Below, piece after piece: positions 20,273 to 36,264 of a stretch of DNA of 64,000 nt; the stretch's first letter is position 1, and each line of letters begins with the position of its first letter. The stretch comes from a virus. The stretch lies in IMG/VR virus record IMGVR_UViG_3300030329_005540, positions 21,676-85,675 of that record; one strand, given 5' to 3'. The notes below the pieces were generated by a model. The model had not been told where the DNA came from and searched no databases. It was given only the letters and a program-made list of their open reading frames with translations. Position numbers and translations under genes: made by a program.

Positions 20273-20625
20273 TTTAAAAAGTCTAATAGATTTTTGGGTT
20301 TGGATTCTATCTGTTTATCTTCTCCTACTTTTTCGTCGCCTAACTGAAAAACGACGGGATCAAACCCTTTTAGGTCAATATTTTTTTTGTATTTAATTAA
20401 ATACGTCTTACCTTCGTCGCTTAAAAACCAAGCAAGACTATTCAACTTAAAGGGAAGATACAGTTTTGTCCAGAACTTTTCTTCAGAAATATACTCAAAC
20501 AACTTTTTAGCGATTGCCATCTCGCGTTTAACAACGCCGCGATTATTCCACACCTTTTCCGGCTCTTTGCAGAACTTGGAAATTAATCTTTGATATTTAT
20601 TGGGCCTCCGCTTGGATTTTCGCAT
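20269..20625 (-). CDS. Small basic protein upstream of recA, possible recombination accessory
   Basis: A protein of 118 residues: a basic N-terminus (MRKSKRRPNKYQRLISKF), an aromatic middle (KFWTKLYLPFKLNSLAWFL) and a C-terminal LLDFLK. It overlaps recA by 4 nt, which suggests coupled translation, and it has a class A promoter located inside the end of the preceding gmd gene. I do not recognise the family. A RecA loader or ssDNA partner is one possibility from context only. Confidence 0.55.
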   Translation of the reverse strand: MRKSKRRPNKYQRLISKFCKEPEKVWNNRGVVKREMAIAKKLFEYISEEKFWTKLYLPFKLNSLAWFLSDEGKTYLIKYKKNIDLKGFDPVVFQLGDEKVGEDKQIESKPKNLLDFLK

Positions 20626-21686
20626 TGTAAATCATATTTTACCATACGCTTTACAAGATCGTCAAATGAAATTTTCGGCCTCCACCCTAATTCAGACATG
20701 GCTTCGCTTGGGTCTCCCCATAATAAATCAACTTCAGCGGGTCGATAAAACTCAGAATTAACCTTGACCAAGGTATATTTATGTGGCCCCGCCAATCTGA
20801 CATATTTTTCCTCTAAGCCTTCTCCCTCCCAATCACATGGCCCGAATCCGGCGGCAGCAAAAGCTTTTTCTACAAATTCTCTGATAGAATGAGTCTCTCC
20901 GCTAGCTAAAAGATAATCTTTAGGATCGTCTTGATTGAGCATCAACCAAATACCCTTTACGAAATCTTCGCTGTCGCTCCAATCTCTTTTCGCGTCTAAA
21001 TTGCCTAATTCAATTGTGCTATGTTTTTTACACTGACCTTTTCTATCGCTCCAAGTTCTGCTAAAGTTGTTAATTTGAAAAAATAATTTAGCCACGCCTT
21101 TGGAAATTTTTCTAGTAACGAACTCTTCGCCACGCTTTGTGCCTTCGTGGTTGAACAAAAGGCCATGAACTGCGTACATATCATAAGACTCTCGGTATAC
21201 TTTAACAAGGTGAGCCGCCGCGCATTTAGATGCCCCATAAGGACTGCGAGGTTTCATTGGGTGCTTCATGTCTTGGGGGGAATAGTCTACGTCGCCAAAT
21301 TGTTCACTGCTCCCTGCGCTATAAAATCTACAATCTGGTTTATACTTGCGGATTGCTTCTAAGCAGCGTATGACTCCTCCGGTATTAGTGTCCAATACGT
21401 GAAGAGGCATATCCCAGCTACATCCAACAAAAGAATTTGCTGCGAAATTGATAAAATAATCAGGTTGAATTTCTTGAACTAATTTGTCTATACTAATTTC
21501 ATCGGTTAGGTCTCCATAAACTAACTGAAAATTTTCATCATCTAAGAAACTCTTACAGTTGACGAAGTTCGGGTTAGAGCTTCTTCTAATCATGCCGAAT
21601 ACCTTATGACCCCTATCTCTAAGGAGGTACTCGCACATATTCGCCCCGTCTTGGCCCGTTATACCTGTAACTAAAACTTTTCTCAT
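20583..21686 (-). CDS. gmd: GDP-mannose 4,6-dehydratase
   Basis: A protein of 367 residues, standard Gmd length. It is an extended SDR: TGITGQDGANMCEYLL at the N-terminus (nucleotide-binding GxxGxxG), SAGSSEQFGD near residue 126, the YGASKCAAAHLVKVYRE catalytic Y-x3-K near 150, and LLFNHEGTKRGEEFVTRKI near 178, diagnostic of GDP-mannose dehydratases. It converts GDP-mannose to GDP-4-keto-6-deoxymannose, the substrate of the next enzyme in the operon. It is the last gene of the glycan operon. Confidence 0.96.
   Translation of the reverse strand: MRKVLVTGITGQDGANMCEYLLRDRGHKVFGMIRRSSNPNFVNCKSFLDDENFQLVYGDLTDEISIDKLVQEIQPDYFINFAANSFVGCSWDMPLHVLDTNTGGVIRCLEAIRKYKPDCRFYSAGSSEQFGDVDYSPQDMKHPMKPRSPYGASKCAAAHLVKVYRESYDMYAVHGLLFNHEGTKRGEEFVTRKISKGVAKLFFQINNFSRTWSDRKGQCKKHSTIELGNLDAKRDWSDSEDFVKGIWLMLNQDDPKDYLLASGETHSIREFVEKAFAAAGFGPCDWEGEGLEEKYVRLAGPHKYTLVKVNSEFYRPAEVDLLWGDPSEAMSELGWRPKISFDDLVKRMVKYDLQCENPSGGPINIKD
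20636..20665 (-). promoter_or_regulatory. Class A-like promoter for 20269-20625 and recA
   Basis: TTGACG at 20660-20665, 7 nt, AAAGC at 20648-20652, 6 nt, TAAAAT at 20636-20641, then 10 nt to the ATG. It lies inside the 3' end of gmd and lets recA be transcribed independently of the glycan operon. Confidence 0.7.
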
Positions 21687-22648
21687 ACGCTTCTTATTTT
21701 ATTAATGTTATCTTTATACCAATTATAAGTGCTGACAAGTCCATCTTCTAAAGAGATTTTATGCTTCCAACCTAATTTATTTATCCTTTGATTATCTAGT
21801 ACTCTTTTAAGGGTTCCGTCAGGTTTCGATAAATCGAATGTAATTTCGCCCTCGTATCCAACTGTCTTTGCTATTAGATGGGATAGGTTTTTGATAGAAA
21901 TTTCTTCTCCCGTTCCGATGTTAAGTTGAGAAATACCCTGAGAATAGATATCTTTAGCTGATACATTTTCGAGAGCGTAAACACACGCATCAGCTAAATC
22001 GTCTACATGCATAAACTCTCTCATGGCTTCGCCAGTGCCCCAAACCTCGACGCTGGGAGCGCCTGATTCTTTCGCCTCGTGAAATCTTCTGATGAGAGCC
22101 GGGAGAACGTGTGAGTTTTCCGGGTGGAAATTATCGTTCTCGCCATATAAATTCGCGGGCATAACAGAAAAGAAGTCTTTTTCGTACTGTTTGTAATAGC
22201 TCTCGCACATCTTTATACCAGCGATCTTAGCGATGGCGTAAGGCTCGTTGGTTGGTTCGAGAGGAGACCTAAGTAAATACTCTTCTCTAATAGGCTGATC
22301 TGTAAATTTTGGATAAATACAAACGCTACCCAAAAAGAGTAGCTTTTTAACCCCTAGCTCATAACTAGAATTAATTAAATTATTTTGTATTTGTAAATTT
22401 TCATAAATAAAATCTGCGCGGTATACGTTATTGGCGTGAATGCCACCGACTTTCGCAGCAGCGTCAATCACGATATCAGGCTGGCAACTCCAAAGATAAC
22501 GATAGACTCCTTCTTGATCAAGGAGGTTAAGCTCTCCTCTAGTTTGAGTCATGACATTATTGTATCCCTTGGACTTAAGCCGTCTAAGGATAGCAGACCC
22601 CACCATCCCACGATGGCCCGCTACAAATATTTTATCTTCTTTATTCAT
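21683..22648 (-). CDS. fcl: GDP-L-fucose synthase
   Basis: A protein of 321 residues. The N-terminal VAGHRGMVGSAILRRL is the Fcl/WcaG NADP-binding loop. GSVCIYP near residue 107 and EPYAIAKIAGIKMCESY near 135 give the catalytic Ser and Y-x3-K. It performs the epimerisation and reduction that turn the Gmd product into GDP-L-fucose. It overlaps gmd by 4 nt, so both are made together. Confidence 0.96.
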   Translation of the reverse strand: MNKEDKIFVAGHRGMVGSAILRRLKSKGYNNVMTQTRGELNLLDQEGVYRYLWSCQPDIVIDAAAKVGGIHANNVYRADFIYENLQIQNNLINSSYELGVKKLLFLGSVCIYPKFTDQPIREEYLLRSPLEPTNEPYAIAKIAGIKMCESYYKQYEKDFFSVMPANLYGENDNFHPENSHVLPALIRRFHEAKESGAPSVEVWGTGEAMREFMHVDDLADACVYALENVSAKDIYSQGISQLNIGTGEEISIKNLSHLIAKTVGYEGEITFDLSKPDGTLKRVLDNQRINKLGWKHKISLEDGLVSTYNWYKDNINKIRSV

Positions 22649-22649
22649 A

Positions 22650-23603
22650 TCAACGAGACAATATTCCTTCTATTGTTTTAACATAATTAGGTACAATTAC
22701 TTCCCAACTAAAATTATCTTCTGCATATTTTCTAATATCTTTTCTCATAGAAATAGATTTTTGTCTATTTAATGCTATTGTTTTTCGTATAAAGTCTTCG
22801 TCTTGGATTTTATCTTCTGGAATTACATCAATAAATGGTAAATTAGTATCTAAGTTAGCCGTTGTGTATTCCGATATAACCAAACCCAACCCCGCCATCA
22901 ATCCTTCTAGACATGACAATGAATGAGCTTCCCCATCGCTTAATAAAATCATGTTTGCATAATTAGTTAAATTATTATATAAATATTCTTTATCCCATTC
23001 ACCTAAATATTCTGGGCTATTAATATCAAATCTATCATCTGCATGATTTCCGGCGAAATCAATATTCATCGCCTTACCTTGGAATAAATGCTGCCTTTTT
23101 CTGTAGTCTATTTTAGCGAGGTATATTGACGTATTTGGTTTAGAGCAGTTTTCGTCAAATCTAAACAGATCGTTTCTGGCTCCGTTGGGCGTGACAAAAA
23201 CATTTTCCTCTGGTATGCCTTTGAGCAGCATAAAGGTTTTTTTAATGCCTTCTGAAAGAGCAAAAACGTAACAAGGAACTCGGTTATAATAGTTAAAGAC
23301 CTGAGAATAAGCGCCGTGCTTCGCGGGCTGCTCTAGATATGCGTAATGACATGTCGCCGCTTTATGTGGACACTTCAGGTAGTCTAACAGCGGAAGATAA
23401 TCATCGTATTGTAAATGTACAAAATGAGGGTTGAAAGAATTAACATCCTTGATGACCTCGGTTAAATCAGGCTTGTTAAAGATCGCTACCTCATGCCCTA
23501 GATCGAGAAGTCCCTCTGAATAATCCCAGATTAAAGACTCAATTGCGCCCCAGCCTTTCGGCGGGATAGGCATCAGACCCGGCCCTATTATACCTATCTT
23601 CAT
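22650..23603 (-). CDS. GT4-type glycosyltransferase (paralog 1)
   Basis: A protein of 317 residues with the GT-B fold: MKIGIIGPGLMPIPPKGWGAIE at the N-terminus, FVTPNGARNDLFRF at the hinge, IYLAKIDYRKRQHLF opening the C-domain, and SDGEAHSLSCLEGLMAGLGLV as the donor-binding E-x7-E region. It is a close paralog of the next upstream gene, probably a tandem duplication with changed specificity. It is shorter than most GT4 enzymes. Confidence 0.88.
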   Translation of the reverse strand: MKIGIIGPGLMPIPPKGWGAIESLIWDYSEGLLDLGHEVAIFNKPDLTEVIKDVNSFNPHFVHLQYDDYLPLLDYLKCPHKAATCHYAYLEQPAKHGAYSQVFNYYNRVPCYVFALSEGIKKTFMLLKGIPEENVFVTPNGARNDLFRFDENCSKPNTSIYLAKIDYRKRQHLFQGKAMNIDFAGNHADDRFDINSPEYLGEWDKEYLYNNLTNYANMILLSDGEAHSLSCLEGLMAGLGLVISEYTTANLDTNLPFIDVIPEDKIQDEDFIRKTIALNRQKSISMRKDIRKYAEDNFSWEVIVPNYVKTIEGILSR

Positions 23604-24535
23604 TTACCTAAAATCCCTTCGTATTTCTTCATGATATTAGACCAATCAAAATTATCTATTGCGTATTGTCTAATTTCTGAGCGCATTGCTAAAGAGGTCA
23701 CTCTATTTTCTTCTATGGCGCTTCTCAAGTAATCAACGTCATTTACTTTTTCTTCTGGAATTACTGTGATAAATGGTAGATCGGTGTCTAAATTAGCGTG
23801 AGCAAATTCTGAAAGAACCAGACCCAAGCCCGATGCTAACGCCTCTATTCCTACTACCGGATGAGCTTCAGCAGTACTTAGCAGCACCATATTCGCGTAT
23901 TCAGTAAGCCCTTCGTATATCTGTTTTTTTGTAAGCTCGCCAATATATTCACCCTCGGCGGGATTAAAGCTTTGGTCGTGTACTCCTCCTGCAAAATGGA
24001 TACCCAAGCCCTTGTCCTGTACTAAGGTTTGTCGTTTGCGTGGTTCAATTTTAGCTAAATAAATTGATTTACAAGGATATTTTATATTATCTTCTTTGAA
24101 GTTGTACAGCTTCGAGTCAACCCCATTAGGTAATACAATTACTTGATCTGAATCACACCCCCTTTCAATAAAAGCATTCTTAATCCCCTCTGAAAGCGCT
24201 ACAATTTTACACCCGCTGTCCTTGCAATCAGTATAAATCCAAGTATATTGGGGCTCTGGATTTTCTAAAAAAGGATAATGGCTAGTAACAAATTTGTTTG
24301 GGCATTCAATATGATTCATCAGATGCGCGTAGGCGTCGTAATGAAGGTGAACGGCGTCGTAGTCTTTCGAATTAGCTTGTTTTACGATCTCGTTTAAGTC
24401 TTTTGTGTTGATTATGTCAACATCGTGGCCGTTCTCAACTAGCTTGTTTCTATAATCCCATATTAATATCTCTACCGCGCCCCATGAAGTCGGGGGAATA
24501 GGCATCATTCCGGGGCCAATCAGCGCAATTTTCAT
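23600..24535 (-). CDS. GT4-type glycosyltransferase (paralog 2)
   Basis: A protein of 311 residues, colinear with the downstream paralog: IALIGPGMMPIPPTSWGAVE, VLPNGVDSKLYNF, IYLAKIEPRKRQTL, and STAEAHPVVGIEALASGLGLVLSE. The two genes overlap by 4 nt. The nucleotide-sugar donor is unknown. It belongs to the glycan operon. Confidence 0.88.
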   Translation of the reverse strand: MKIALIGPGMMPIPPTSWGAVEILIWDYRNKLVENGHDVDIINTKDLNEIVKQANSKDYDAVHLHYDAYAHLMNHIECPNKFVTSHYPFLENPEPQYTWIYTDCKDSGCKIVALSEGIKNAFIERGCDSDQVIVLPNGVDSKLYNFKEDNIKYPCKSIYLAKIEPRKRQTLVQDKGLGIHFAGGVHDQSFNPAEGEYIGELTKKQIYEGLTEYANMVLLSTAEAHPVVGIEALASGLGLVLSEFAHANLDTDLPFITVIPEEKVNDVDYLRSAIEENRVTSLAMRSEIRQYAIDNFDWSNIMKKYEGILGK

Positions 24536-24536
24536 T

Positions 24537-25502
24537 TTATAAAGTTATTTTAAGCCATTCTTTTAAAATGGCTAGTTCTTTCTTTTGTACGATGTCGTGT
24601 AAGTATAAATTGTTATAAAGTCCTAATAAATCTTCAGGTTTTTGAGGATGAAAATCTTTTAAAATTTTAATAACCTTCGGGGTGTGAAGATATACGGGGA
24701 TTTCGTCAATAAAATCATCGAAAAATTCATGAGCATTTCGTTCCTGATACACCGTAGCGTGGTTATGACCTATTCTGCCTCCGTGCATCCAAATCATTTT
24801 TTGAGCTACGTAAGAACGTAAAATGTCGCAGTATCTAAATGCGACGGTGCATGGTACATATAAATTATAGAACGTCTCTGGGCTTATCCAGATAGTATTC
24901 TGAGTATTAAACGGCGCGTAAACTTCTTCACCTAAAACAATTTGCTTTCTTGTTTTAAATTTTACTTTATTGTTTCTAGTTAGTCTATAAATTGCATCTA
25001 CATCAGGCTCAATGTCCGCTAACCCCTGCCAAACATGAACGGGTGCGTCATTCTCTTCATAGACATGTCGCTGTCTCTTATTAACTAAACTTAAGTCGTA
25101 CCCACGCGGCCATATTTTTTTGCTTGTAAATTCTTTTAAAGTATTTGGCCTTTCGGGTGACACCAGCACCTTGCTAGTAGAATATTTTTCATAGTTACCC
25201 CAGCTTTTATAAGGTATGTTGTCGTCATCAGTCTCCGCTATGATTTTGTATCCATTTTGAATCGCGTATAAATACCCTAAATTTTTGCGGCAATAATGAT
25301 TGTTGGGTATTAACTTAGATAACTTTGAAGAGACTTCTTCTTGCTCCTCCAAGCCTAGAAAAGTTAAGTCGTTTCTTTGACGGTAGCTGCTCTCGCTTGT
25401 TTTTAAGTCTCCGACAACAATTAAATCATATTCGCTTTTAGCGAAAGCCTCTATACATTTATTGGGCTCATTTATTGTTGTGATTATAATGCACTTTTTC
25501 AT
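24537..25502 (-). CDS. STELLO/DUF288-like glycosyltransferase
   Basis: A protein of 321 residues. The N-terminus (CIIITTINEPNKCIEAFAKS, LIVVGDLKT) followed by RKNLGYLYAIQNG and the acidic IAETDDDNIPYKSW near residue 95 resembles the DUF288/STELLO family, GT-A-like proteins with a Asp-rich metal site. A later DILRSYVAQKMIWMHG segment also fits. It ends just before the paralogous GT4 genes. Substrate unknown. Confidence 0.7.
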   Translation of the reverse strand: MKKCIIITTINEPNKCIEAFAKSEYDLIVVGDLKTSESSYRQRNDLTFLGLEEQEEVSSKLSKLIPNNHYCRKNLGYLYAIQNGYKIIAETDDDNIPYKSWGNYEKYSTSKVLVSPERPNTLKEFTSKKIWPRGYDLSLVNKRQRHVYEENDAPVHVWQGLADIEPDVDAIYRLTRNNKVKFKTRKQIVLGEEVYAPFNTQNTIWISPETFYNLYVPCTVAFRYCDILRSYVAQKMIWMHGGRIGHNHATVYQERNAHEFFDDFIDEIPVYLHTPKVIKILKDFHPQKPEDLLGLYNNLYLHDIVQKKELAILKEWLKITL

Positions 25503-26530
25503 TTAAAGTTTATCATATGTTTCAGAACAGCTTGAGGATTTTCCACGCAGGATTCAAAAGAAGATTGTATGTCCTCTAATTCTGAATTGTTTGTGACTAA
25601 ATTGATAATAGACCTATCCTCCGAAAACAGTGCAACGCATTGAGGCAGCGTCAAGTTGTTTCTCCTGACATTGATAATATCCAACTCTTTAATTCTCATT
25701 TTGTGAGGATTCAAAGACACGTAATCTTCCGAGGGGATTCCCATTATTGCGACCTTACCCCCAAGAGAAGCGGCGGAAAAACAATTGTTAATTGTGATAG
25801 CTTTACCGGCGGCGTCGATACATATACTCGTACCTTCGCCATTCGTTAAGTCTTTAATCACGTCTAAACATTTTTCATCTGCGATCACTGTTTCAGTAGC
25901 TCCATAATTTTTAGCCATCTCAAGCCTACTATTTAAGGGGTCTACCATTATAACTTTTTTGATACCTACCTTCTTAGCGACGAGGAGTGCTGAGATGCCA
26001 ATCATTCCTGCTCCAAAGATGGTTATAGAATCTCCAATTTGAGGATTGACTCTATTCATGCAATGCACGGCGATGCCTATTGGCTCCATAAGGGAGGCTT
26101 CTTCAAAAGACATTGCGTCAGGAATTTTTTCAAGCTGCCTATCGCTTAGTATCGCGTAATCTCTAAACGCGCCTAAATCTGTCGCGCCCATGAATTTTAC
26201 GCTGGAGCATAAATTATGCCTTCCTTTCTCACAGCACTTGCATTTGTTGCCGCAGGACAGTCCCGGCTCTATAGCTACTCTGTCGCCCTCTTTAAATCTT
26301 TTGCTCTTACTTTCTACCACGATTCCCGCTGGCTCATGACCCATTTCCATTGGCATCTTTTGCTTAAAGCTACCTAATCCGCCATGTAGATAATAATTAA
26401 GGTCTGACCCGCATATACCAACGGCCTCCATTTTTACCAAGCAGGTCGAGTCTTGTAGAGATGTCGTAAGCGTTTGCTCAGAAAGCTCCATTCTCCCTAT
26501 ATCAACTAATTTCGCTACTCTAATCTTCAC
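25499..26530 (-). CDS. Zinc-dependent alcohol/polyol dehydrogenase (MDR family)
   Basis: A protein of 343 residues from the GTG at 26530, which overlaps the upstream stop as GTGA; a further upstream ATG would add ten residues. It is a medium-chain dehydrogenase: VGICGSDLNYY near residue 37 (catalytic Cys), MGHEPAGIVVE near 62, a structural zinc site with four Cys (CGNKCKCCEKGRHNLC) near 88, and ITIFGAGMIGISALLVAK near 163 for NAD(P). It likely oxidises or reduces a sugar-derived hydroxyl in the glycan pathway, perhaps making the keto substrate for the adjacent aminotransferase. Confidence 0.88.
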   Translation of the reverse strand: MKIRVAKLVDIGRMELSEQTLTTSLQDSTCLVKMEAVGICGSDLNYYLHGGLGSFKQKMPMEMGHEPAGIVVESKSKRFKEGDRVAIEPGLSCGNKCKCCEKGRHNLCSSVKFMGATDLGAFRDYAILSDRQLEKIPDAMSFEEASLMEPIGIAVHCMNRVNPQIGDSITIFGAGMIGISALLVAKKVGIKKVIMVDPLNSRLEMAKNYGATETVIADEKCLDVIKDLTNGEGTSICIDAAGKAITINNCFSAASLGGKVAIMGIPSEDYVSLNPHKMRIKELDIINVRRNNLTLPQCVALFSEDRSIINLVTNNSELEDIQSSFESCVENPQAVLKHMINFK

Positions 26531-27657
26531 TGTGAATCTAGTTCCTTTAGCACCTCGCACACATAATCCGCCTCGGAATCAGTTAATTCCGGGTAAAGCG
26601 GAGGACAAATGTGCATGTCGCTTATATATTCTGTGTTCGGGAAGGATTCTTTTGCAAATATTTTTTCATATTTCGGTTGTTTATGCACTGGAATTTCATA
26701 AACTTGCCCTGTTAAGGATATTCCGCGTTCTTTACAGTGGTTTTTTAACCTCTTGCTTTCTTTGCTGCTGGCGTGGCCCCATTTACCGACTTTTAAAATT
26801 AATTTATAATAAGAACAAAAACCTGTTTCTTGTTTTACTACTTCATAATTAGTCTTTTTTAAATTCCTTTCATATATTCTGACTAAATGGTTTCTTCTGC
26901 GTATTCTTTTCTTTACTCGTTGTAATTCTAAGTGGCCCATGAGTCCTGTGAACTCGCTAACCTTGTAATTGTTTCCGTCTGGATTTACGCATAAGATGGA
27001 GCCATCACTGGGTCTGCCGAAGTTTTTAATCGACCTCATCTTTTCGTAAAGCTCGGAGTCGTTAGTCGTGATCATGCCGCCTTCCCCGGTAGTCATTACC
27101 TTGGTCGGGAACATGCTAAAGCATCCAACTGACCCGATGGAGCCCGCCGTATAGCCGTCTATGTTAGAACCGTGGGCGTGGGCTGCATCTTCAACCAGCG
27201 GGACATTATTCTTCTTGCATATCTCTACGATTCTTTTAATGTACGGCGAGATTATGCCTCCTATATGCACTAGGACAACCGCTCCAGTTTGCTCGGTTAT
27301 CTTTTCTTCTAGCGAGCTTGGAGACATGCAGAACGAATCTAGCTCGGCGTCAACCAGAACTAATTCGCCGCCAGCATTTTCTACGGCTAAAGCAGTGGCG
27401 AAAAAAGTATTGGATGGAATTATTACTTCTTTACCTTTAACACCGATGGCTTTGAGGGCGACTTCAATGGCCGTGGTTCCTGAAGATATAGCTAGAGCGT
27501 GTTCGGCGTTGCTTAATTTAGCAAAACCCTTCTCGAACTCTCTAACGTATTTGCCTTCGCTTAATAAATTATTACCTGATAAAATTTCAGTGCTTAATTT
27601 ATTCCAATCGTAAATAAATTCATCTTCGAACTCAAGTTTGAAAATTGGTATATTCAT
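26527..27657 (-). CDS. DegT/DnrJ/EryC1-family sugar aminotransferase
   Basis: A protein of 376 residues of the PLP-dependent sugar aminotransferase family. Visible blocks: SSGTTAIEVALKAIGVKGKEVIIPSNTF near residue 58, VEDAAHAHGS near 155, and GCFSMFPTKVMTTGEGGMI near 177 with the PLP-binding Lys in PTK. It transfers an amino group to a keto sugar nucleotide. Dehydrogenase, epimerase and glycosyltransferases sit around it, so an amino sugar is probably part of the glycan made here. Confidence 0.93.
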   Translation of the reverse strand: MNIPIFKLEFEDEFIYDWNKLSTEILSGNNLLSEGKYVREFEKGFAKLSNAEHALAISSGTTAIEVALKAIGVKGKEVIIPSNTFFATALAVENAGGELVLVDAELDSFCMSPSSLEEKITEQTGAVVLVHIGGIISPYIKRIVEICKKNNVPLVEDAAHAHGSNIDGYTAGSIGSVGCFSMFPTKVMTTGEGGMITTNDSELYEKMRSIKNFGRPSDGSILCVNPDGNNYKVSEFTGLMGHLELQRVKKRIRRRNHLVRIYERNLKKTNYEVVKQETGFCSYYKLILKVGKWGHASSKESKRLKNHCKERGISLTGQVYEIPVHKQPKYEKIFAKESFPNTEYISDMHICPPLYPELTDSEADYVCEVLKELDSQ

Positions 27658-28544
27658 TTAAGAATCTTGCTATATTTGCTGAGTATTATATTTATCTGTT
27701 CTTTAATAACTCCTGAGTATTTTTCAGATGGGTCTCTCCTGCTGGTGTCACAATGCAAGAGCATCACTTTGGAGAATTGTTTTTCGTATGAATTCTTGCC
27801 CCAGAAATTTCCATCTTGAAAAATTAAAGGCATATGCTCATCACCCATAAAGCAGTGGTTTATTGCCCCACTTAATAAAATGGCTTTATCTTTGTTTTGA
27901 ACAACATGACTAAAGAAAACCTCATCGGTTAAGCCTTGAATATATTCGTCATCAGAAGAATAAACATCGTCGTAAATTTCTAAAACTTCTCTAAAAATTT
28001 CCTTGTTGTCTTCAGTGGTTTCAAATACGAAGCATCCCCCCGTAAGTAAAAAGTGCTTTTCATTTAACCCTATTCTTTCTTTTACCTCTTGAAACGCCGC
28101 CTTGTTTCCCGCAGGGACAGCCATCGCTTCAAAATGGCGAAGCGTAGGAACCCAAAAGTGGGGAGACGCGCCGACTTTACCGTTTAAATCTTTTACTATT
28201 AGAGGCAGCGTATTGTTTATGAATAAAGTATCCGTATCTACATACGCGCCAAACTTGGTTTCAATCTCTAACGCAGCTTTGTATTTTTGCTTCCAGAATA
28301 AATAGCCTTTCTTTCCGGGTTTTTCAAAGTCTATTTCATTCGGCTTGTGATGCACCGTTATTTTGTTGGAGATTTGATACTTCGATTGTATCTCGTCTGA
28401 ACTTAGAGTTTCCCCTATCTCCCAAATCAAAAACTCTCCACTGAACCCTACGTCTGTAAGACTAGTCATGCTAGCTAGCATGTTTTTGTAGTGCTGCTGG
28501 TCTCCCCCAACCACGTAATAAACTGTCGTATTAGAGTTTCTCAT
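27654..28544 (-). CDS. GT-A glycosyltransferase (GT8-like)
   Basis: A protein of 296 residues. It opens with a GT-A Rossmann pattern, followed by WKQKYKAALEIETKFGAYVDTDTLFINN near residue 85-110 with the D-T-D metal motif, GGCFVFETT near 167, and a C-terminal MLLHCDTSRRDP. The order resembles GT8-type and related enzymes. The substrate is unknown. It overlaps its neighbour by 14 nt inside the glycan operon. Confidence 0.65.
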   Translation of the reverse strand: MRNSNTTVYYVVGGDQQHYKNMLASMTSLTDVGFSGEFLIWEIGETLSSDEIQSKYQISNKITVHHKPNEIDFEKPGKKGYLFWKQKYKAALEIETKFGAYVDTDTLFINNTLPLIVKDLNGKVGASPHFWVPTLRHFEAMAVPAGNKAAFQEVKERIGLNEKHFLLTGGCFVFETTEDNKEIFREVLEIYDDVYSSDDEYIQGLTDEVFFSHVVQNKDKAILLSGAINHCFMGDEHMPLIFQDGNFWGKNSYEKQFSKVMLLHCDTSRRDPSEKYSGVIKEQINIILSKYSKILK

Positions 28545-29307
28545 ATTTTACATCAGCCTTTTTCATTAAGTTGTCGAATTCTTCTTTATCTAAGCGCTTT
28601 AACCCAGCCCATTCCATAGTAGAATTAAAGGCGTCTACATCCTTGAGTAAAAGTTCGATTCCGATGTTATGCGTGTCATCGTCTTCCTCTAAAAATGGTG
28701 GACAATAATAATAGTCTCTCAGCTTGCCCGTAAATTCCTCACAAAACCATCTACCTGAAGGAGAGTTATGTTTCCTACCGCTTTTTTCTTCTCTTTCTAA
28801 AAATAAAAATTTAGGTTTTTTAAATGCTAGTTTCCACAAGGGGATCGCCGCAGAATTTCTTGGGTCTTTCCACCCCCAAGGCTTAGAGTAGTCTGGTTCT
28901 CCTCCCCAGAATTCGCTTAAGCATTTTTCTAATTGTACATTTCCCCACGCTGGGTTAACGCCGCCCATAAGTTGACTAGCGTTAAGACCATCACCTGACA
29001 ATCTCTCAAATACTATCTTGATCGCATCAGAGTTCTCTAAAACAGATAAATAAAAATTCCATGTGCTGAGATGCATCATCTCGGTGTCGTTTGTATAAGG
29101 CAGGAAATTTTTTAGCGCAGTACAATTAATTTTAACCATTGCGTCTGACTCGTGCAATACTCGCTTGCCTTGCTCGTCGTCTCTTTTGCCTAGCGCATCC
29201 CCCGCGTCAACCCCGGCAAATAAACCATTCAAGCGTAAAACTTTAGTTGCAAGAGAAGTTCCTCCCCCGTGTGCTCCGCATACGATAATTGGATTTTCAA
29301 ATTTCAT
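28531..29307 (-). CDS. Sulfotransferase-like P-loop protein
   Basis: A protein of 258 residues. The N-terminal IVCGAHGGGTSLATKVLRLNG has the shape of a sulfotransferase 5'-phosphosulfate-binding loop, and WGWKDPRNSAAIP near residue 143 fits the downstream K/R-x-P-R region that binds the 3'-phosphate. It lies next to a clearer sulfotransferase and shares the operon. The window also encodes an APS kinase at 61854 that could supply PAPS. The acceptor is likely a sugar. Confidence 0.6.
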   Translation of the reverse strand: MKFENPIIVCGAHGGGTSLATKVLRLNGLFAGVDAGDALGKRDDEQGKRVLHESDAMVKINCTALKNFLPYTNDTEMMHLSTWNFYLSVLENSDAIKIVFERLSGDGLNASQLMGGVNPAWGNVQLEKCLSEFWGGEPDYSKPWGWKDPRNSAAIPLWKLAFKKPKFLFLEREEKSGRKHNSPSGRWFCEEFTGKLRDYYYCPPFLEEDDDTHNIGIELLLKDVDAFNSTMEWAGLKRLDKEEFDNLMKKADVKYEKL

Positions 29308-29887
29308 AATTAAAAATCTTATAATCTTTTTTGTAAATTCTTTTGATTATATTTTCTGCTTCTTTACTAGCTTTATATTCTTTCACCCCCTTGTTTTCAT
29401 GTCTTAAGTTGTTATCTACTCCAAGTTTATCCGTAATAAATTTGTAATCTTCTTCAATTGTTTCTAATTTACCAAGATAATCGACTATAACTTTCTCTTC
29501 TTCATCACATAAGAAATAATACTGGGGAGCTAAATGATCTATCAACTGCAATGGATCAGACTTGTTTAAAAAATTAATACAAAACTCATCAAAATTATCA
29601 GAGTTATCTACAGCAGAAAACACATCCTCATCAACAGACTGTCTTTGAAATGTTTTAGAATTTTTAAAATAATTATACGCCGAAATAGCGCGAGCCAAAG
29701 GGTTTCTACAGAACCCAAAAACAAAATATTCTTCGTATATTTTTGGATACGCAGACTTTAAGAAAAGAGCGGGGAAGTGCCCTCCGTAAGTGAGTCGATC
29801 CCATCCTAGGGATTCAGCTACGCTGCGACCAGCAACCTTGGGTACGTGTACGAAAATGCATTTTTTATTGTGACAAATATGTTCCAT
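29297..29887 (-). CDS. Sulfotransferase (family 2-like)
   Basis: A protein of 196 residues. CIFVHVPKVAGRSVAESL near residue 10 is the PAPS 5'-phosphosulfate loop of carbohydrate sulfotransferases, and FGFCRNPLARAISAYNYF near 58 is the 3'-phosphate motif (R-N/D-P-x-x-R-x-x-S). It is shorter than the vertebrate members and close to bacterial sulfotransferase family 2. It would place sulfate on the phage-made glycan. Confidence 0.85.
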   Translation of the reverse strand: MEHICHNKKCIFVHVPKVAGRSVAESLGWDRLTYGGHFPALFLKSAYPKIYEEYFVFGFCRNPLARAISAYNYFKNSKTFQRQSVDEDVFSAVDNSDNFDEFCINFLNKSDPLQLIDHLAPQYYFLCDEEEKVIVDYLGKLETIEEDYKFITDKLGVDNNLRHENKGVKEYKASKEAENIIKRIYKKDYKIFNYEI

Positions 29888-30714
29888 TACTTAGCTAACG
29901 TCGGTTTTCTATTCTTGAAATCTTCGTTATTAATATCGTAAATTTTAGCTAAATCATCGATAGTAAAATCAATTTGAGTTTTATCAGGGTCAAGAGAAGC
30001 GAGGTTCGCGTTTAGTGTTTTGACATGGCTTTTGTCGTAATCATTCCACTGGATATAGTTACCTTTAATGAGAAGGTCTTTTTCGAATTTAGAAATAACG
30101 TTCTCCACGGGTACAAAATTTTTATACACGGGGTCTCCTTGCTCCGATCTAACCTTGTCTTCAGCAGGGCCAGTGCGACTGTTTCTAGTGGCGATATTTT
30201 GAAAGATTAATTGTTTCCTAGGGAATAATTTGTAACAAGCGTACATGGCGTACCACATTGATTTACCGGAGCTATGAAATATAGCGGGGAACATTACCTC
30301 TGCGAAGCTCCTAGAAAATATATGAACGCATAAATCGTAGCACGCGATAGGGTGAACAGGCTTATCTGTTTGAACTTTTGATAAATGCCATCCGGGTCCG
30401 CCTAAAGTTCCAGAGACAGGTTTGTATTCGTCGAAATTATCCGCAATAGTTTGAGCTATGTTTTCCCCGTAGAATAAAACATCGTCATCTATAAAAATGT
30501 AATATTCGTACTCGTCCATTATGTGATCGTATAAGATGCTTCTACCCTCGGTCCAACAAGCGTCAGGATGACAAACTTGAGCATTTGGGTCATCAAGTTC
30601 TTTCCAATTCAATCTATAGAAATCACTAACCTCGGTATTAAACTGAGACTTATGCTGAAGGGTGAAATCATCGTTGATGGTTTTGCCTTGTTCTAGAACA
30701 CAGAACTTTTTCAT
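29887..30714 (-). CDS. Putative GT-A glycosyltransferase
   Basis: A protein of 275 residues. YEYYIFIDDDVLFYGENI near residue 70 carries a Asp-rich metal-binding motif at the end of a hydrophobic strand, as in GT-A enzymes, and TEGRSILYDHIM precedes it. GTLGGPGWHL near 103 and CVHIFSRSF near 128 are typical acceptor-side loops. It shares end bases with both neighbours. Family not assigned. Confidence 0.6.
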   Translation of the reverse strand: MKKFCVLEQGKTINDDFTLQHKSQFNTEVSDFYRLNWKELDDPNAQVCHPDACWTEGRSILYDHIMDEYEYYIFIDDDVLFYGENIAQTIADNFDEYKPVSGTLGGPGWHLSKVQTDKPVHPIACYDLCVHIFSRSFAEVMFPAIFHSSGKSMWYAMYACYKLFPRKQLIFQNIATRNSRTGPAEDKVRSEQGDPVYKNFVPVENVISKFEKDLLIKGNYIQWNDYDKSHVKTLNANLASLDPDKTQIDFTIDDLAKIYDINNEDFKNRKPTLAK

Positions 30715-31442
30715 TTTTCACCTCCTCTAAATCTTGGGAATTGCTCCATGTTCTTATCGAGATGGACTATCGTTTTTTCAACAGGCATAGTCCAATTTTG
30801 AGGGTATGCAAATCCTGCATGTAAGGTAGAAACTAATTCGTCGTTCTCAGAAAAGTATCTGTTTAGATGTGACTCATCATGCCACGCGGCGATAACTCCA
30901 TTTTCCAAATCCTTTTTCACGCAAACGTGAAGCTCTTTTATCATTTGACTTATGTGAGGGTTTTTACCTCCCCAAAAACATCCCTGCCTGTATTTAACAC
31001 CATGCTCTTCTGTTTTGGGAGTATAAGCCGTAGACTGCTTGTTACTTTCGTACTCGCATATTCCAGAGCCGTACATAAATTGCCCCGGATGATGAACCCC
31101 GAAGAAGTGATCATACCTATTCAAAAACGAACTAGGAATAAGCTTACTCACTACCATGTCCGCATCTAAGAAAATGACATCGCTAAATTTCTCAAGCTCA
31201 TCAATGACTCCGTACATGTACTTGAATCGCTTAAGAGTGATATACGGCCAAGGCTCATGCTCTATTTTTCGAACCGCTACGTTGTCTTTTTTAAAGACTT
31301 CGTTCTCTACGTCGTCTGTAAACGCATATATAACCTTCTCTTCATCCGGAAGAAAAAGGCTCATAACTCCGTCGTAGTAGTCGTCGAAAAAATCTACGTA
31401 CTTGTTAGTTCCAATAAATATAAATGCTATCTTCTTTTCCAT
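30711..31442 (-). CDS. GT6-family glycosyltransferase (ABO/alpha-1,3-Gal(NAc)T-like)
   Basis: A protein of 243 residues with the hallmark blocks of family GT6, the family of human ABO A/B transferases: AFIFIGTNKYVDFF, WPYITLKRFKYM near residue 66, VIFLDADMVVS near 89, HHPGQFMYG near 117, YRQGCFWGGK near 152 and AAWHDESHLNRYF near 186. The D-A-D metal motif is kept, whereas many bacterial GT6 enzymes carry Asn there. It transfers Gal or GalNAc in alpha-1,3 linkage, usually to fucosylated galactose. The adjacent GT11 and GDP-fucose genes fit that acceptor. Confidence 0.93.
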   Translation of the reverse strand: MEKKIAFIFIGTNKYVDFFDDYYDGVMSLFLPDEEKVIYAFTDDVENEVFKKDNVAVRKIEHEPWPYITLKRFKYMYGVIDELEKFSDVIFLDADMVVSKLIPSSFLNRYDHFFGVHHPGQFMYGSGICEYESNKQSTAYTPKTEEHGVKYRQGCFWGGKNPHISQMIKELHVCVKKDLENGVIAAWHDESHLNRYFSENDELVSTLHAGFAYPQNWTMPVEKTIVHLDKNMEQFPRFRGGEK

Positions 31443-32281
31443 GACTCTGGGATTATATCATCTAAATAATTTTCTCTGTATTCTTTAGGACAAATAAGCT
31501 CTAAGTGTTGTGGCGTGAACCACTTATCAGGAGCAAAGACCTGTTTATCATCATTGCTGTTTAGCCATGCCGCCCACCAACTATATGTAGAATTAGATAT
31601 AATGTTTGTGCGACATCTACTCATTAAAAATAACTCGATTAAATCTTCTTTAAAATATTTAGGCGCATCTACTTCTGCGGTTTTAGTATCGCTAATTAAA
31701 CTTAAATCATGTGCTCTTTCAGAAATAAAAAAAGAATTTTCAACTTCATTGGAAAAAATATTTTTACAGTGATTTATATCATCCGAAAAGAAGAGGACTT
31801 TCGACGCGCCGCTCTCTTTAATGCACGATAGAAAGTAATCTTCGTTTAATGGGTGATATACAGTAGATAAAAGTCTATAATCGCCGCATCTAATATGAAC
31901 CGATACGGTATCCTCTTCGAAGACGAATCCGTATTTTTCTTCTATGATTTTAGATATCTCGTCGCTGGGAGTGAGATAGTTCCGAATCTCTTCCTCGCTG
32001 TCTTTGAAATACTTTTCTGATTGAAAATACCCAGATAAATCTATAGACACTTCTCCAGAGCATTCTAAATCAAATCCTTCATAAGTGCAGCCACTCTCTT
32101 TTATTTGCAAATCCGCATGTTGAAATCCTGTGGGAATTTTATTTTTTAGATGTTTGTTAACCGCCCACTCTGGGAAGCTATAACTGTGACCGTTTTTATT
32201 GGCTATACCTATGGTGGAGGCGACTTGAAAAAACTGGTTTCCAAGTCTGCCCATGTTTCCTAATCGAGAAAATGTAATCAT
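31427..32281 (-). CDS. GT11-family alpha-1,2-fucosyltransferase
   Basis: A protein of 284 residues. GRLGNQFFQVASTIGIA near residue 12 is motif I of GT11; VSVHIRCGDYR near 135 is the GDP-fucose-binding H-x-R-x-G-D-Y motif; VLFFSDDINHCK and NIISNSTYSWWAAWL near 225 are the remaining motifs. It adds fucose in alpha-1,2 linkage to galactose, which creates an H-antigen-like acceptor. Gmd and Fcl in the same operon make its donor. It overlaps the GT6 gene by 16 nt. Confidence 0.95.
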   Translation of the reverse strand: MITFSRLGNMGRLGNQFFQVASTIGIANKNGHSYSFPEWAVNKHLKNKIPTGFQHADLQIKESGCTYEGFDLECSGEVSIDLSGYFQSEKYFKDSEEEIRNYLTPSDEISKIIEEKYGFVFEEDTVSVHIRCGDYRLLSTVYHPLNEDYFLSCIKESGASKVLFFSDDINHCKNIFSNEVENSFFISERAHDLSLISDTKTAEVDAPKYFKEDLIELFLMSRCRTNIISNSTYSWWAAWLNSNDDKQVFAPDKWFTPQHLELICPKEYRENYLDDIIPESWKRR

Positions 32282-32282
32282 T

Positions 32283-33242
32283 TTATTTTGGGGAATTTAT
32301 TGCGATCCACCTAAATAGTTCGTGCTCGGGCTCCCAGCCTAGCTCTTTTTTTGCTTTCGTAATATCCGCGCATGTAGTTTTAGGCTCAAAGCGCGGCTCG
32401 ATGTGTTTGATTTCGTTGTGTATATATTGCGCTATTTTTTTAATAGAGTGTTTTTCTCCAGAGCCAATATTGTAAATGTGGTGTCCGTCTGGCAAATCTG
32501 TTTCGGCAGCCTTTACGTTGGCTCTCGCTACATCTTTGACGTTTACAAAGTCTCTTTCTTGCAGCCCGTCACCAGTGAGAGATAAAGACTGGCCGCTTAA
32601 CAACTGTCGAAAAAATATTCCCATTACTGGAACGTATGATCCTTGAGTCGGCTGTCCTTCTCCGTAAACGTTAAAATACCGAAGCGATACGCTATTTAAT
32701 CCGTAAAGTTTTGAAAACAATTCTAAGTACTGTTCTCCTACCAGCTTGTGCAATGCATATGGACTCATAGGGTCTAGCCTTCCATTTTCGTCAGTAGGTG
32801 TGAATTCAGGATCGCCGTAAACTGATGACGACGAACTGAATATAATCTTTTTTACGCCAGCGTTTTTACACGCCCAAAACAAATTCAAACTTCCATTAAT
32901 GTTTTCCTCATGATATTTGATGGGGTCTTTGATAGAGGGGTCAACCCTCGGATGCGCGGCTAAATGAAAAACATATTCAACATCCTTTAAAACTTCGACT
33001 AGCTGATGAGAAAAAATAACGTTCTTTCTAATAAATTCGACACTAGGTAAATTTTTATTTCCGCGTACCTCGTTACCGAATCTAAAATTAAACGGTAAAG
33101 TGGAATCGCCGGGGGAAGCCGCTCTTTCCGTAGTTGAGCAGTCGTCAACAACCGTTACGTCATAACCGCTCTTTAAAAGAGCTTCTACAACGCTACTCCC
33201 GATAAACCCTAGTCCTCCCGTAACTAATACTTTAGTTTTCAT
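32283..33242 (-). CDS. NAD-dependent sugar epimerase (GalE-like)
   Basis: A protein of 319 residues, extended SDR fold: VLVTGGLGFIGSSVVEALLKSG at the N-terminus, VFHLAAHPRVDPS near residue 90, SSSSSVYGDPEFTP near 130, the YALHKLVGEQYLELF catalytic Y-x3-K near 154, and LRYFNVYGEGQP. Closest in pattern to UDP-glucose/UDP-GlcNAc 4-epimerases. It could make UDP-Gal or UDP-GalNAc, the donors used by GT6 enzymes. Confidence 0.88.
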   Translation of the reverse strand: MKTKVLVTGGLGFIGSSVVEALLKSGYDVTVVDDCSTTERAASPGDSTLPFNFRFGNEVRGNKNLPSVEFIRKNVIFSHQLVEVLKDVEYVFHLAAHPRVDPSIKDPIKYHEENINGSLNLFWACKNAGVKKIIFSSSSSVYGDPEFTPTDENGRLDPMSPYALHKLVGEQYLELFSKLYGLNSVSLRYFNVYGEGQPTQGSYVPVMGIFFRQLLSGQSLSLTGDGLQERDFVNVKDVARANVKAAETDLPDGHHIYNIGSGEKHSIKKIAQYIHNEIKHIEPRFEPKTTCADITKAKKELGWEPEHELFRWIAINSPK

Positions 33243-33969
33243 TTTTTTCTTTTTCCTTTTCGTATATCCTTTTTCTCAAATTGCTGGAAGAATAAGAATG
33301 CGTACTCCTGTCGTGAAAATATTCTTCTTTAGCTATTCCTTTACCCGTGTATTCCTTGCCTTCCCAATCGGTTCCCAATACTCTTATATCGGGTTTGACA
33401 GTTAGTAGTAATTCAATTAAAGATTTCTCGGTATCGTATAATCTAATTTCATCAACATACTTGCACGCCGACAAAGACTCTCTTCTTTCTTCTAGAGATT
33501 GAATAGGTTTATTTTTTTCTGGCCTGTCAATAGTCGGGTCTGTTTGAAGCCCCGCAATAAGCTTGTCACATTTTGACCTTGCGTCTTTGAGCATTATAAA
33601 GTGCCCAGCGTGTAAAAGATCAAAGCAGCTACAAACGAAGCCCGTCCTTTGTTCGGGAGGCGGTTGGGGAACCAACTCATTACGCAAAGCTTGAGTGTTT
33701 TGAGCATTGGTGCTTATAAGTCTATCGCAGTCAGGTATTCCTTCGTTGATTAATTCGTGATATTTAACCTCCCAATCTTTCAACCATATCTTGTTATAGT
33801 TACTCCAATCCTTTCCTCCAGCTTTTGAGCGAGTGCTGTAAATTTTAATTACATGCCCTTGCTCGTATAATTTATTAATATGATCAATCATGTAAAGATA
33901 AGGCTTTGCGTCGGGGAAAAATTCTTCCTCTGTGCAAATAGTCCCATCTAATTGAAAGCAGTAAGTCAT
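33232..33969 (-). CDS. HAD-like phosphatase fused to a cytidylyltransferase
   Basis: A protein of 245 residues from the ATG at 33969, which overlaps the kinase stop as ATGA. Residues 1-95 are HAD-like (CFQLDGTICTEE, then IKIYSTRS), but the first motif reads F-x-L-D-G-T, so the usual nucleophile Asp is missing. Residues 105-235 are a nucleotidyltransferase: VCSCFDLLHAGHFIMLKDAR holds the H-x-G-H motif, and THSYSSSNLRKRI resembles the R/I-S-S-T-x-L/I-x-x-R block. It may activate a sugar or polyol phosphate with CTP, downstream of the GHMP kinase. Confidence 0.8.
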   Translation of the reverse strand: MTYCFQLDGTICTEEEFFPDAKPYLYMIDHINKLYEQGHVIKIYSTRSKAGGKDWSNYNKIWLKDWEVKYHELINEGIPDCDRLISTNAQNTQALRNELVPQPPPEQRTGFVCSCFDLLHAGHFIMLKDARSKCDKLIAGLQTDPTIDRPEKNKPIQSLEERRESLSACKYVDEIRLYDTEKSLIELLLTVKPDIRVLGTDWEGKEYTGKGIAKEEYFHDRSTHSYSSSNLRKRIYEKEKEKNEN

Positions 33970-34922
33970 AACTCCGTTGCGCTTGCGCCGTACCAATCAC
34001 AGGCAATTTTAAAAGTGATTTTATTCAAGTCTTCCTCCTGCTTTAGATCATAATTTTTATCAGTAAATACTAAAAAGTATCCTCCACCACCAGCGCCGCA
34101 TAGCTTGTGAGCTTTAACTTGGCTAAGTTTATCCAATTTCTCATCTATTTCAAGTATTTTTTGATTTGATGCAATAGAATTTGACGTTTCCTTCTTTCTC
34201 GCCCAGCCTTCGTTGATAATTTCGAAAAAATCGTCAGGCTTATTTCTAGTAATTGACTTTTCCATTTTTTGTACCAGAGGTAAAAGCGCTTCGACTTTTT
34301 TAAGATCGAGGGTTTTTAGTATATCTGTAGACTTCCTGCTGACTCCGGTATAAACGAGATACTTATTGTAATCTTCGATAAAACTCTTACCGAAAATCTT
34401 ACATCTGATTTTATTATTTGGGTAAAAATCTAATTTTTTAAACCCGCCAATCCCGCAGCCATAAGAATCTTGGTATCCGGTTAATGGGTTAAAATTTCTC
34501 TCTAGCTCTAGCGCGATTTCACATATTTGCCCTTGGCTTAGATTCAATTGATTCTGCAAACTGGCAGCTTTTATCAGAGCTATTAAATAAGCCGAGGAGG
34601 ACGCTAAACCTGAACCGTGTGAGAAGATATCAGAAAAGAATGAAATGCTCGTAGGAGGCAATTTGAAGCGATCTAGACACTCTCTAGCGATGTCATTATG
34701 AATCTCTGAAACAGAAGAGACTTCCTCTTTTTGGGAATATTTTATAATATATTTATCATCAACTGCATTATAGCCATTTTTATCAGTAAATAGAGTTACG
34801 TATGAATATAAATTACAAGGAAAACTAATTACTGATCCGCGCCCTTTATAATCTATAAACTCCTGTAAGTCGGTTGAGCCTCCAGCAATAGAGACTCTTA
34901 ATGGACATCTGGAAATTATCAT
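33966..34922 (-). CDS. GHMP-family sugar kinase (HddA-like)
   Basis: A protein of 318 residues. ISRCPLRVSIAGGSTDL at the N-terminus is typical of D-glycero-D-manno-heptose-7-phosphate kinases and related sugar kinases. The ATP loop HGSGLASSSAYLIALI lies near residue 102, and the C-terminal KLCGAGGGGYFLVF is motif 3. It would make a sugar-1-phosphate for the adjacent cytidylyltransferase. Fucose-type kinases share this fold, so the sugar is uncertain. Confidence 0.85.
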   Translation of the reverse strand: MIISRCPLRVSIAGGSTDLQEFIDYKGRGSVISFPCNLYSYVTLFTDKNGYNAVDDKYIIKYSQKEEVSSVSEIHNDIARECLDRFKLPPTSISFFSDIFSHGSGLASSSAYLIALIKAASLQNQLNLSQGQICEIALELERNFNPLTGYQDSYGCGIGGFKKLDFYPNNKIRCKIFGKSFIEDYNKYLVYTGVSRKSTDILKTLDLKKVEALLPLVQKMEKSITRNKPDDFFEIINEGWARKKETSNSIASNQKILEIDEKLDKLSQVKAHKLCGAGGGGYFLVFTDKNYDLKQEEDLNKITFKIACDWYGASATEL

Positions 34923-35890
34923 ACAAAATTTAATCTTACTTTATTTAAAAAGTCCATCGTAGCTAAATATCTTTCGTCTCCCTCTAATCTCCAATTATCA
35001 TCAGTCAACTCTCCTCCGTTTTTGTCCACCATGAATTTCCATATTTGATTAAGGTGGAAGTTTTGAAAGTGGAACTGGAGACCGTATCTAATCACGTCGG
35101 CGGCGTCAGCCTGATTACCTTCGTTCCAGAGGTGTTTGGCGTATTCGCCTATCTCTTCGGCGGGGCGATAGAAATTTAATTTGTTAACCCAAAATCTAGA
35201 CTTCTCTTGCTGCCTTATTCTCACGAGCCTTCCAACGCAAGTGTATTGGTCATCGTTGTGGAAAGCTAGCATTTGATGGTTGTGCGAAATCTTAAACCCT
35301 GAGTCGCGACACTTCTGAGAAAAGTCGGTATCTTCATTATGCTTACCTTCTTCATAATCTTTTAGAGATTTCATGTTGGCGCGTTGTAAGCCTGTCGAAT
35401 ACTCAGTGTTCCACTTGCATTTTTCAAAAACGTACCTTTTCATTATCCAAGCTTGACCACCTGACATATAAAGATAAGGATCATCTTCATTCTCGTTTAG
35501 AACGCAGTGGCCGTATTTAGGACTTTGATAGCATACGTGATCCCAGAAGCGAGTACCGTCAGGGAGCCTGACTTGGGAAGTTAGGATATCGTAATCTGAT
35601 TTATAATTTAATAAATTTTTATACCAATCTGGTGATAAAATCATATCATCGTCTAAAATTACGATCTTTTCCCCTTCAGAAGCTTCGCAAGCCCGATTTC
35701 TCATCTCTCCGAGAAGACCTTTTTTGGCTGCTGATTTAGCTGAGACTAATGTATATCCCTCTCCTTTGGGGTAATCTCCAGCGATTAGAATTTCATAACT
35801 GTCAATTTGTTGGCAATGTATTGATTTTAAAACAAGGTCAGTTATTTCTTGTTTTTTGCCATTTGATACTATTACAAAAGAAAAATCCAT
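34919..35890 (-). CDS. GT2-like GT-A glycosyltransferase
   Basis: A protein of 323 residues. SFVIVSNGKKQEITDLVLKSI starts a GT-A fold, and KIVILDDDMILSPDWYKNLL near residue 95 holds the metal-binding Asp cluster. GGQAWIMKRYVFEKCKWN near 145 and HNEDTDFSQKCRDSG near 180 (E-D-x-D) are the acceptor and catalytic-base regions of GT2-like enzymes. It is the first gene of the glycan operon. Confidence 0.8.
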   Translation of the reverse strand: MDFSFVIVSNGKKQEITDLVLKSIHCQQIDSYEILIAGDYPKGEGYTLVSAKSAAKKGLLGEMRNRACEASEGEKIVILDDDMILSPDWYKNLLNYKSDYDILTSQVRLPDGTRFWDHVCYQSPKYGHCVLNENEDDPYLYMSGGQAWIMKRYVFEKCKWNTEYSTGLQRANMKSLKDYEEGKHNEDTDFSQKCRDSGFKISHNHQMLAFHNDDQYTCVGRLVRIRQQEKSRFWVNKLNFYRPAEEIGEYAKHLWNEGNQADAADVIRYGLQFHFQNFHLNQIWKFMVDKNGGELTDDNWRLEGDERYLATMDFLNKVRLNFV

Positions 35891-35902
35891 ATACAGTCAT
35901 AA

Positions 35903-35931: not shown

Positions 35932-35932
35932 C

Positions 35933-36217: not shown

Positions 36218-36223
36218 GTCATA

Positions 36224-36231: not shown

Positions 36232-36264
36232 ATAAACTATCTGTACTTTTTTAAAAAAATAAAA

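Follow-up and report, generated by a model that had tools for sequence, protein, structure and literature searches.

The human A and B antigens are built by a pair of enzymes, one that adds fucose and a second that then adds the blood-group-type sugar. In bacteria, the Escherichia coli O86 O-antigen locus encodes an alpha-1,2-fucosyltransferase and the GT6 enzyme WbnI, and the successive action of GT11 and GT6 yields a B-type determinant there (PMC4202792, PMC4506291); the characterised GT6 enzymes BoGT6a, WbnI and BgtA take Fuc-alpha-1,2-Gal as acceptor (PMC3961637, PMC4202792). Viruses carry genes of these kinds as well: two cyanophage GT6 were remarked on in 2014 (PMC3961637), phage S-SCSM1 was published with GDP-mannose 4,6-dehydratase (Gmd), GDP-L-fucose synthase (Fcl) and fucosyltransferases (PMC9602691), and chlorovirus PBCV-1 encodes Gmd, GMER and glycosyltransferases and shows antigenic variants with changed glycans (PMC5408694). 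Here we analyze a glycan gene cassette in a 64,000-nucleotide stretch of virus DNA, referred to below as the window, which comprises bases 21676-85675 of IMG/VR virus record IMGVR_UViG_3300030329_005540, a contig of 85,675 bases that is itself a fragment. The cassette encodes Gmd, Fcl, a GT11 fucosyltransferase and, directly after it, a GT6 transferase, and we propose, with a probability of roughly 0.6, that GDP-fucose is made, that GT11 fucosylates and that GT6 adds a second sugar, giving a branched terminus that is ABO-type in its architecture. While the gene set is known in kind from cyanophages, what is new is the strength of the linkage between GT11 and GT6, the swapping of GT6 next to a GT11 that is conserved, and a variable glycan locus between nrdB and recA in an uncultured lineage.

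The cassette consists of 17 co-directional minus-strand genes at 20583-35890, located between nrdB and recA and spaced by -34 to +1 bases when measured on open reading frame (ORF) coordinates. A sequence-only reading of the window had placed Gmd, Fcl, GT11 and then GT6 in one operon, and Pfam matches in the near-gapless run of ORFs bear this out. Gmd (20583-21686, minus strand), the recA-proximal gene, matches PF16363 at 356 bits and TIGR01472 at 342 bits, and Fcl (21683-22648, minus strand) matches PF01370 at 213 bits and the NCBIfam model GDPFucSynFcl at 468 bits, both remaining under their NCBIfam equivalog cut-offs of 415 and 500 bits. The GT6 ORF (30711-31442, minus strand) overlaps the GT11 ORF (31427-32281, minus strand) by 16 bases. 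Since the families are curated, the genes overlap and the gene order is kept in relatives, the cassette is not a chance assembly, and the gene set is confirmed as real, intact and functionally coherent.

Both terminal enzymes were then judged on motifs, family models and predicted structures, the last having been proposed as a check by the sequence-only reading. The GT11 product matches PF01531 at 51.3 bits (cut-off 23.9) and retains the conserved blocks GxLGNQ, HxRxGD (as HIRCGDY) and NSTxSWW (as NSTYSWW). Searches of PDB sequences, with the single protein or a profile, gave sub-threshold matches only, and it was fold comparison that settled its identity: an AlphaFold2 model with a predicted local distance difference test score (pLDDT) of 84 has the fold of GDP-fucose fucosyltransferases, its best matches being FUT8, NodZ, AtFUT1 and POFUT (best E 3e-7, template-modelling (TM) score ~0.5). 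No loss of catalytic residues was seen, and GT11 is genuine and intact. It is probably an H-type alpha-1,2 enzyme; the family is not exclusively alpha-1,2, given that HhFT2 of H. hepaticus is an alpha-1,3 enzyme (PMC4202792).

GT6, of the retaining alpha-1,3-Gal/GalNAc-transferase type, matches PF03414 at 65.8 bits (cut-off 25), BoGT6a at E 1e-27 and ABO at E 1.8e-15. Its AlphaFold2 model (pLDDT 91) has the GT-A fold, with TM scores of 0.86 to BoGT6a and ~0.8 to the human ABO enzymes, and the hallmark catalytic motifs that had been claimed for it are all in place, namely D93-A94-D95 (DXD), H118, W187-H188-D189-E190, whose Glu is the catalytic one, and K230. Donor or acceptor contacts are made in BoGT6a by the counterpart of the WHDE stretch and by His122 and Lys231, and NXN stands in place of DXD (PMC3961637). 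The two proteins thus share the fold, WHDE and the catalytic His and Lys positions, whereas BoGT6a has NAN, metal independence, AGG and Thr134 where the window GT6 has DAD, QGC (Q153-G154-C155) and Glu. The human enzymes GTA and GTB share the GT-A fold, DXD and the WHDESHLN motif with it, but differ in the donor-site residues and are 23-24% identical. From its sequences, the phage GT6 clade appears to be a metal-dependent DXD form, unlike most bacterial GT6.

The combination of these genes on one phage operon had been called unusual, a view that does not survive comparison with sequenced phages. GT6 is present in 71 INPHARED phage records, nearly all of cyanophages, and where inspected it almost always comes after GT11: with 1-4 bases of overlap in S-8S53, DSL-LC02, S-CAM9, SynMITS9220M01, B23, Bellamy and S-PRM1, and 0.7 to 1.5 kb beyond GT11 in ACG-2014f, AG-345-E15 and P-SSM2. 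The whole Gmd-Fcl-GT11-GT6 set lies in one cluster in DSL-LC02 and ACG-2014f, and the part of the P-SSM2 cluster that was read contains, besides GT11 and GT6, an epimerase and an Fcl homologue (49%). With phage-borne nucleotide-sugar and glycosyltransferase genes alongside GT11, the window cassette is of the kind described as cyanophage lipopolysaccharide (LPS) clusters. It resembles the Kyanoviridae clusters (all those named above except AG-345-E15) in having GT11 directly or closely upstream of GT6, and shares further features with some of them, such as Gmd with Fcl (ACG-2014f, DSL-LC02), Fcl (P-SSM2), an epimerase before GT11 in several, and homologous GT4 genes. In contrast to those clusters, it carries an HddA-like kinase, an RfaE-like domain, a sulfotransferase, a DegT protein and a Zn-dehydrogenase, and the phage itself differs from Kyanoviridae in its phrog_405 DNA polymerase replication module, its transfer-messenger RNA (tmRNA) and the fact that no T4-type backbone was seen. 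Further afield, the O86 locus differs in being bacterial, lipid-linked and Wzy-polymerised, and in having a known product; PBCV-1 is a eukaryotic virus with a glycan unlike ABO, and we know of no GT6-GT11 pair reported in it.

To quantify the association of the two genes, viral GT6 loci were collected by an alignment-based scan of IMG/VR contigs, which yielded 431 (a single-protein scan of viral contigs found 0), and the 80 closest to the window were analyzed. Because these were picked with GT6 patterns that include QGC, motif frequencies in the set are biased but GT11 linkage is not; the presence of QGC in 80/80 loci should be read as a biased frequency, as QGC was one of the two search patterns. 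A GT11 gene is found no more than 3 kb from GT6 in 76 of the 80 loci, and one gene step away in 65; in all four loci without a nearby GT11 the sequence on one side of GT6 is short. In the same loci, which have a median of 16 same-strand genes nearby, Fcl and Gmd never adjoin GT6 and GT4 rarely does. Adjacency holds in 25 of 31 informative clusters at 80% identity, with a binomial p of 9e-15 that is indicative only, since it assumes independence and a null of 2/12 chosen by us. Eight records reached via the lineage or via GT6 loci either hold both genes (four, adjacent in each) or lack both (four), and in bacteria GT11 is found within 3 kb of GT6 in 53/80 loci, in either gene order.

This strong pairing across viruses and bacteria favours a GT6 that acts on the GT11 product. 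Alternatively, each of the two enzymes could modify its own residue of one polysaccharide, independently of the other, and they could be neighbours only through the general clustering of glycan genes; both do sit in dense glycan clusters, with one to two genes between them in some loci. We consider this unlikely: they adjoin each other far more often than other glycan genes of these loci do, and the pairing occurs in both gene orders in bacteria and outlasts replacement of GT6. Several points nevertheless weigh against the proposal that GT6 extends a fucosylated residue. The donor site Q153-G154-C155 is neither the L-G-G of GTA nor the M-G-A of GTB, and Glu131 takes the place of the acceptor contact Thr134 of BoGT6a, although the remaining acceptor residues, H118 and WHDE, are kept. 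On account of the donor motif and Glu131 we do not claim A- or B-synthase activity for this enzyme. The GT6 family also includes fucose-independent enzymes, namely alpha-3GT and the iGb3 and Forssman synthases. For the GT6 enzymes of this phage clade, our literature search found no biochemistry. In bacteria, about a third of the GT6 loci have no GT11 within 3 kb, as seen with a search model built from phage GT11 only. Finally, no O-antigen polymerase/ligase (PF04932) or initiating transferase (PF02397) is present in the contig, a fragment, which leaves the carrier of the glycan unexplained and argues against a Wzx/Wzy O-antigen locus.

Phylogeny, the other check proposed, places the two genes in discordant trees. 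The contig IMGVR_UViG_3300030098_006179 (G004) comes from a relative with NrdA 79% and NrdB 89% identical to those of the window phage, and its cassette has the same order: GT2 (51%), GHMP kinase (52%), nucleotidyltransferase (59%), epimerase, one additional gene, GT11 and GT6. Its GT6 is only 31% identical to the window GT6 and has the donor motif AGG. In the GT11 tree, the window, contig L020 and G004 form one clade (97/91), whereas in the GT6 tree the window falls in a nearly all-viral DXD/QGC clade (98/88) and G004 groups with P-SSM2 and a huge phage in a different one (99/94). An approximately unbiased (AU) test rejects a single GT6 clade of window, L020 and G004 (p 1e-7). Likewise, P-SSM2-type and ACG-2014f GT6 as one clade are rejected (p 4e-5), while the GT11 of both types form a single group (97/79). 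Both p values err on the optimistic side, as the groups were named after the trees had been seen. The trees thus indicate that in two phage groups GT11 stayed orthologous while the adjoining GT6 was exchanged for one from a different deep clade. Contigs catalogued as Omnitrophota and Pacearchaeota genomes (L100, L105) also carry GT6 of the phage DXD clade, which may be viral sequence in bins or host-acquired genes.

If GT6 is replaced while GT11 stays, the terminal epitope would change. More tentatively, and on balance we hold this to be doubtful, marine phages may have an ABO-like terminal locus where an exchangeable GT6 "allele" (QGC or AGG) comes after a conserved H-type fucosyltransferase. 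A swap of this allele would give another terminal sugar, and with it another serotype, to the virion or the infected cell; two unrelated phage groups would each have undergone it at least once.

The setting of the cassette is variable as well. Among related contigs with both ends inside the fetched flank, the nrdB-recA interval measures 1.4 to 8.3 kb, against 16.2 kb in the window; the longer cassettes of G001 and G004 exceed the fetched flank and so fall outside that range. Gmd, at the recA end, is the most constant gene, being kept in 15/27 complete intervals. The variable glycan locus spans window positions 20273-36517 and is also seen in L180-L258. With its fixed flanks and varying contents, the interval behaves like a serotype region. 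The GC content of the cassette (0.389) equals that of the backbone (0.396), and there is thus no sign of a recent foreign origin.

The sequences suggest that the window phage is a member of a large uncultured marine lineage without an obvious T4-like character. Of 165 marine viral contigs, most of the best 80 have an NrdA with 70-81% identity to that of the window phage, against at most 45.5% for INPHARED records, and the DNA polymerase of the phage falls in phrog_405 and matches annotated DNA polymerase III alpha. Given this polymerase type, and NrdA and RecA without close INPHARED relatives, we rejected an assignment to the T4-like Kyanoviridae; a search for the T4 capsid protein Gp23 matched nothing anywhere, controls included, and says nothing on T4-likeness. 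Nor could a link to the Moraphages be made: PMC12619734 mentions glycosyltransferases, but not ribonucleotide reductase, tmRNA or fucose. The polymerase is split in two ORFs within 7284-13191 on the minus strand (12409-13191 and 7284-9935) that are separated by genes for an HNH endonuclease-like protein and an exonuclease subunit. The tmRNA (18074-18481, minus strand; RF00023, 136 bits), also found in eight related contigs, has an unusually long, conserved tag of ~30-36 amino acids, AN(D/N)NVDM..APS(L/V)AEAD(A/E)ILAKFG(Y/W).EE...AA. Large ORFs of 526-1032 amino acids without PHROG or Pfam match, at 18-10732 in contig L006 and at 23-2851 in the window (plus strand), surround tail-fibre-like proteins and are probably unrecognised structural proteins. 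A metabolic island at 55978-61627 (plus strand) encodes an aldehyde dehydrogenase, an S-adenosylmethionine decarboxylase domain fused behind another domain, a 2-oxoglutarate-Fe dioxygenase, a saccharopine-dehydrogenase-like enzyme (a possible polyamine route) and an enzyme of the IMPDH/GMP reductase type.

The remaining cassette genes, all on the minus strand, are given here in order of transcription. First comes a GT2-type glycosyltransferase (34919-35890; PF00535, 27.9 bits), with a 50-51% identical homologue at the same position in L020 and G004. It is followed by a GHMP sugar kinase (33966-34922; PF00288) nearest to HddA, the D-glycero-D-manno-heptose 7-phosphate kinase (NCBIfam, 94.6 bits, not reaching the cut-off of 600), and by a nucleotidyltransferase (33232-33996; PF01467, 55 bits) resembling RfaE domain II, of the heptose-1-phosphate adenylyl/cytidylyltransferase type (TIGR02199, 75 bits, below cut-off). 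A putative NDP-sugar epimerase/dehydratase of the short-chain dehydrogenase/reductase type, GalE/HldD-like (32283-33242; PF01370, 197 bits), then precedes GT11 and GT6. Downstream of these lie a protein without Pfam match in which we read a FIDDDV stretch, possibly a GT-A enzyme (29887-30714); a sulfotransferase (29297-29887; PF03567, 57.2 bits); a P-loop protein without Pfam match (28531-29307), a possible second sulfotransferase judging from its N-terminal GAHGGGTSLATKVL; and a putative glycosyltransferase without Pfam match (27654-28544), kept in related cassettes with homologues in 15 viral ORFs. The last part of the cassette, ending with Fcl and Gmd, begins with a DegT/DnrJ/EryC1 sugar aminotransferase (26527-27657; PF01041, 311 bits), a Zn-dependent sugar/polyol dehydrogenase (25499-26560; PF08240 and PF00107) and a STELLO-like glycosyltransferase (24537-25502; PF03385, 35 bits), and continues with two GT4 glycosyltransferases, at 23600-24535 (PF13439, 34.7 bits; 45-46% to cyanophage homologues) and 22650-23603 (PF13439, weak; 48-50%). 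Among the fetched related loci, no homologues were found of the products of 29887-30714, 28531-29307 and 24537-25502.

As to donor supply, the GalE-like epimerase that was to provide UDP-Gal or UDP-GalNAc exists as an epimerase, 36-40% identical to those in the ACG-2014f, P-SSM2 and AG-345 clusters, but is not identified as GalE, its best NCBIfam model (178 bits, cut-off 262). A phosphomannomutase (50138-50848, plus strand; PF03332, 119 bits) and a cupin, possibly a sugar isomerase (51151-51501, plus strand; PF07883, 52.9 bits; PF01050, 28.6 bits), had been suggested to feed the donor side. Both genes are there, yet they are not part of the operon, being 14 kb off on the opposite strand with three tRNA genes in between. 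In the 85.7-kb contig, a fragment, no guanylyltransferase of the NTP_transferase type matched, so that a step of this type leading to GDP-mannose, and with it a complete donor side, is not evident there. The phosphomannomutase is of the HAD, or "eukaryotic", type, here carried by a phage.

We infer the sequence in which the enzymes act, as well as the sugars, their carrier and what the cassette is for, from family knowledge such as the action of BoGT6a, WbnI and BgtA on Fuc-alpha-1,2-Gal (PMC3961637, PMC4202792). Most likely, Gmd and Fcl would convert host GDP-mannose to GDP-L-fucose, and soluble glycosyltransferases would assemble an oligosaccharide that may include sulfate and a heptose-type sugar. 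GT11 would cap a galactose-like residue with fucose, and GT6 would add an alpha-linked second sugar, a hexose, to the fucosylated residue, forming the branched terminus. During infection, the cassette would most likely decorate either a structural protein of the phage or a glycan on the host surface, destinations that we consider about equally likely.

That the cassette modifies LPS or capsule in the envelope of the host, for instance as a block to superinfection, is a possibility that we rate somewhat below even. Such cyanophage clusters have been called LPS genes (PMC3037559, PMC9602691), and the heptose-type kinase and nucleotidyltransferase, together with Capsule_synth and GT9-like genes elsewhere in the window, resemble envelope pathways. 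Against it, the contig has no Wzy_C/WaaL-type or Bac_transf gene, and no membrane-spanning protein is evident in the cassette, as no strongly hydrophobic segment stood out in a hydropathy scan, though the host could supply both. The same scan, leaving soluble enzymes only, agrees with decoration of the virion, which falls equally short of an even chance. Chloroviruses, which encode Gmd, GMER and the glycosyltransferases that act on their capsid protein and which show antigenic variants with altered glycans (PMC5408694), offer a precedent, as do mycobacteriophages with glycosylated capsids and tail tubes (cited in PMC12619734), and exchange of a terminal transferase resembles antigenic variation. 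However, no protein-targeting transferase was identified in the cassette, and ocean bacteria have no antibodies, so that the selective agent would need to be something else. Placement of the glycans on phage DNA as hypermodified bases is highly improbable. Phages do glycosylate modified DNA, and there is a dNMP kinase-like gene at 43925, but no thymidylate-synthase/hydroxymethylase family matched in the contig, and fucose with a GT6 architecture is unlike the DNA-glycosylation systems that we know of; a TET/JBP search, without match anywhere, controls included, was uninformative on DNA modification.

It has been an open question whether the large phage "LPS" clusters have a function or are stuffer DNA (PMC3037559). 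The strong pairing of GT11 with GT6 and the recurrent replacement of GT6 argue for a function of these clusters and for selection on a specific terminal structure, and they reduce the question to a test of two enzymes.

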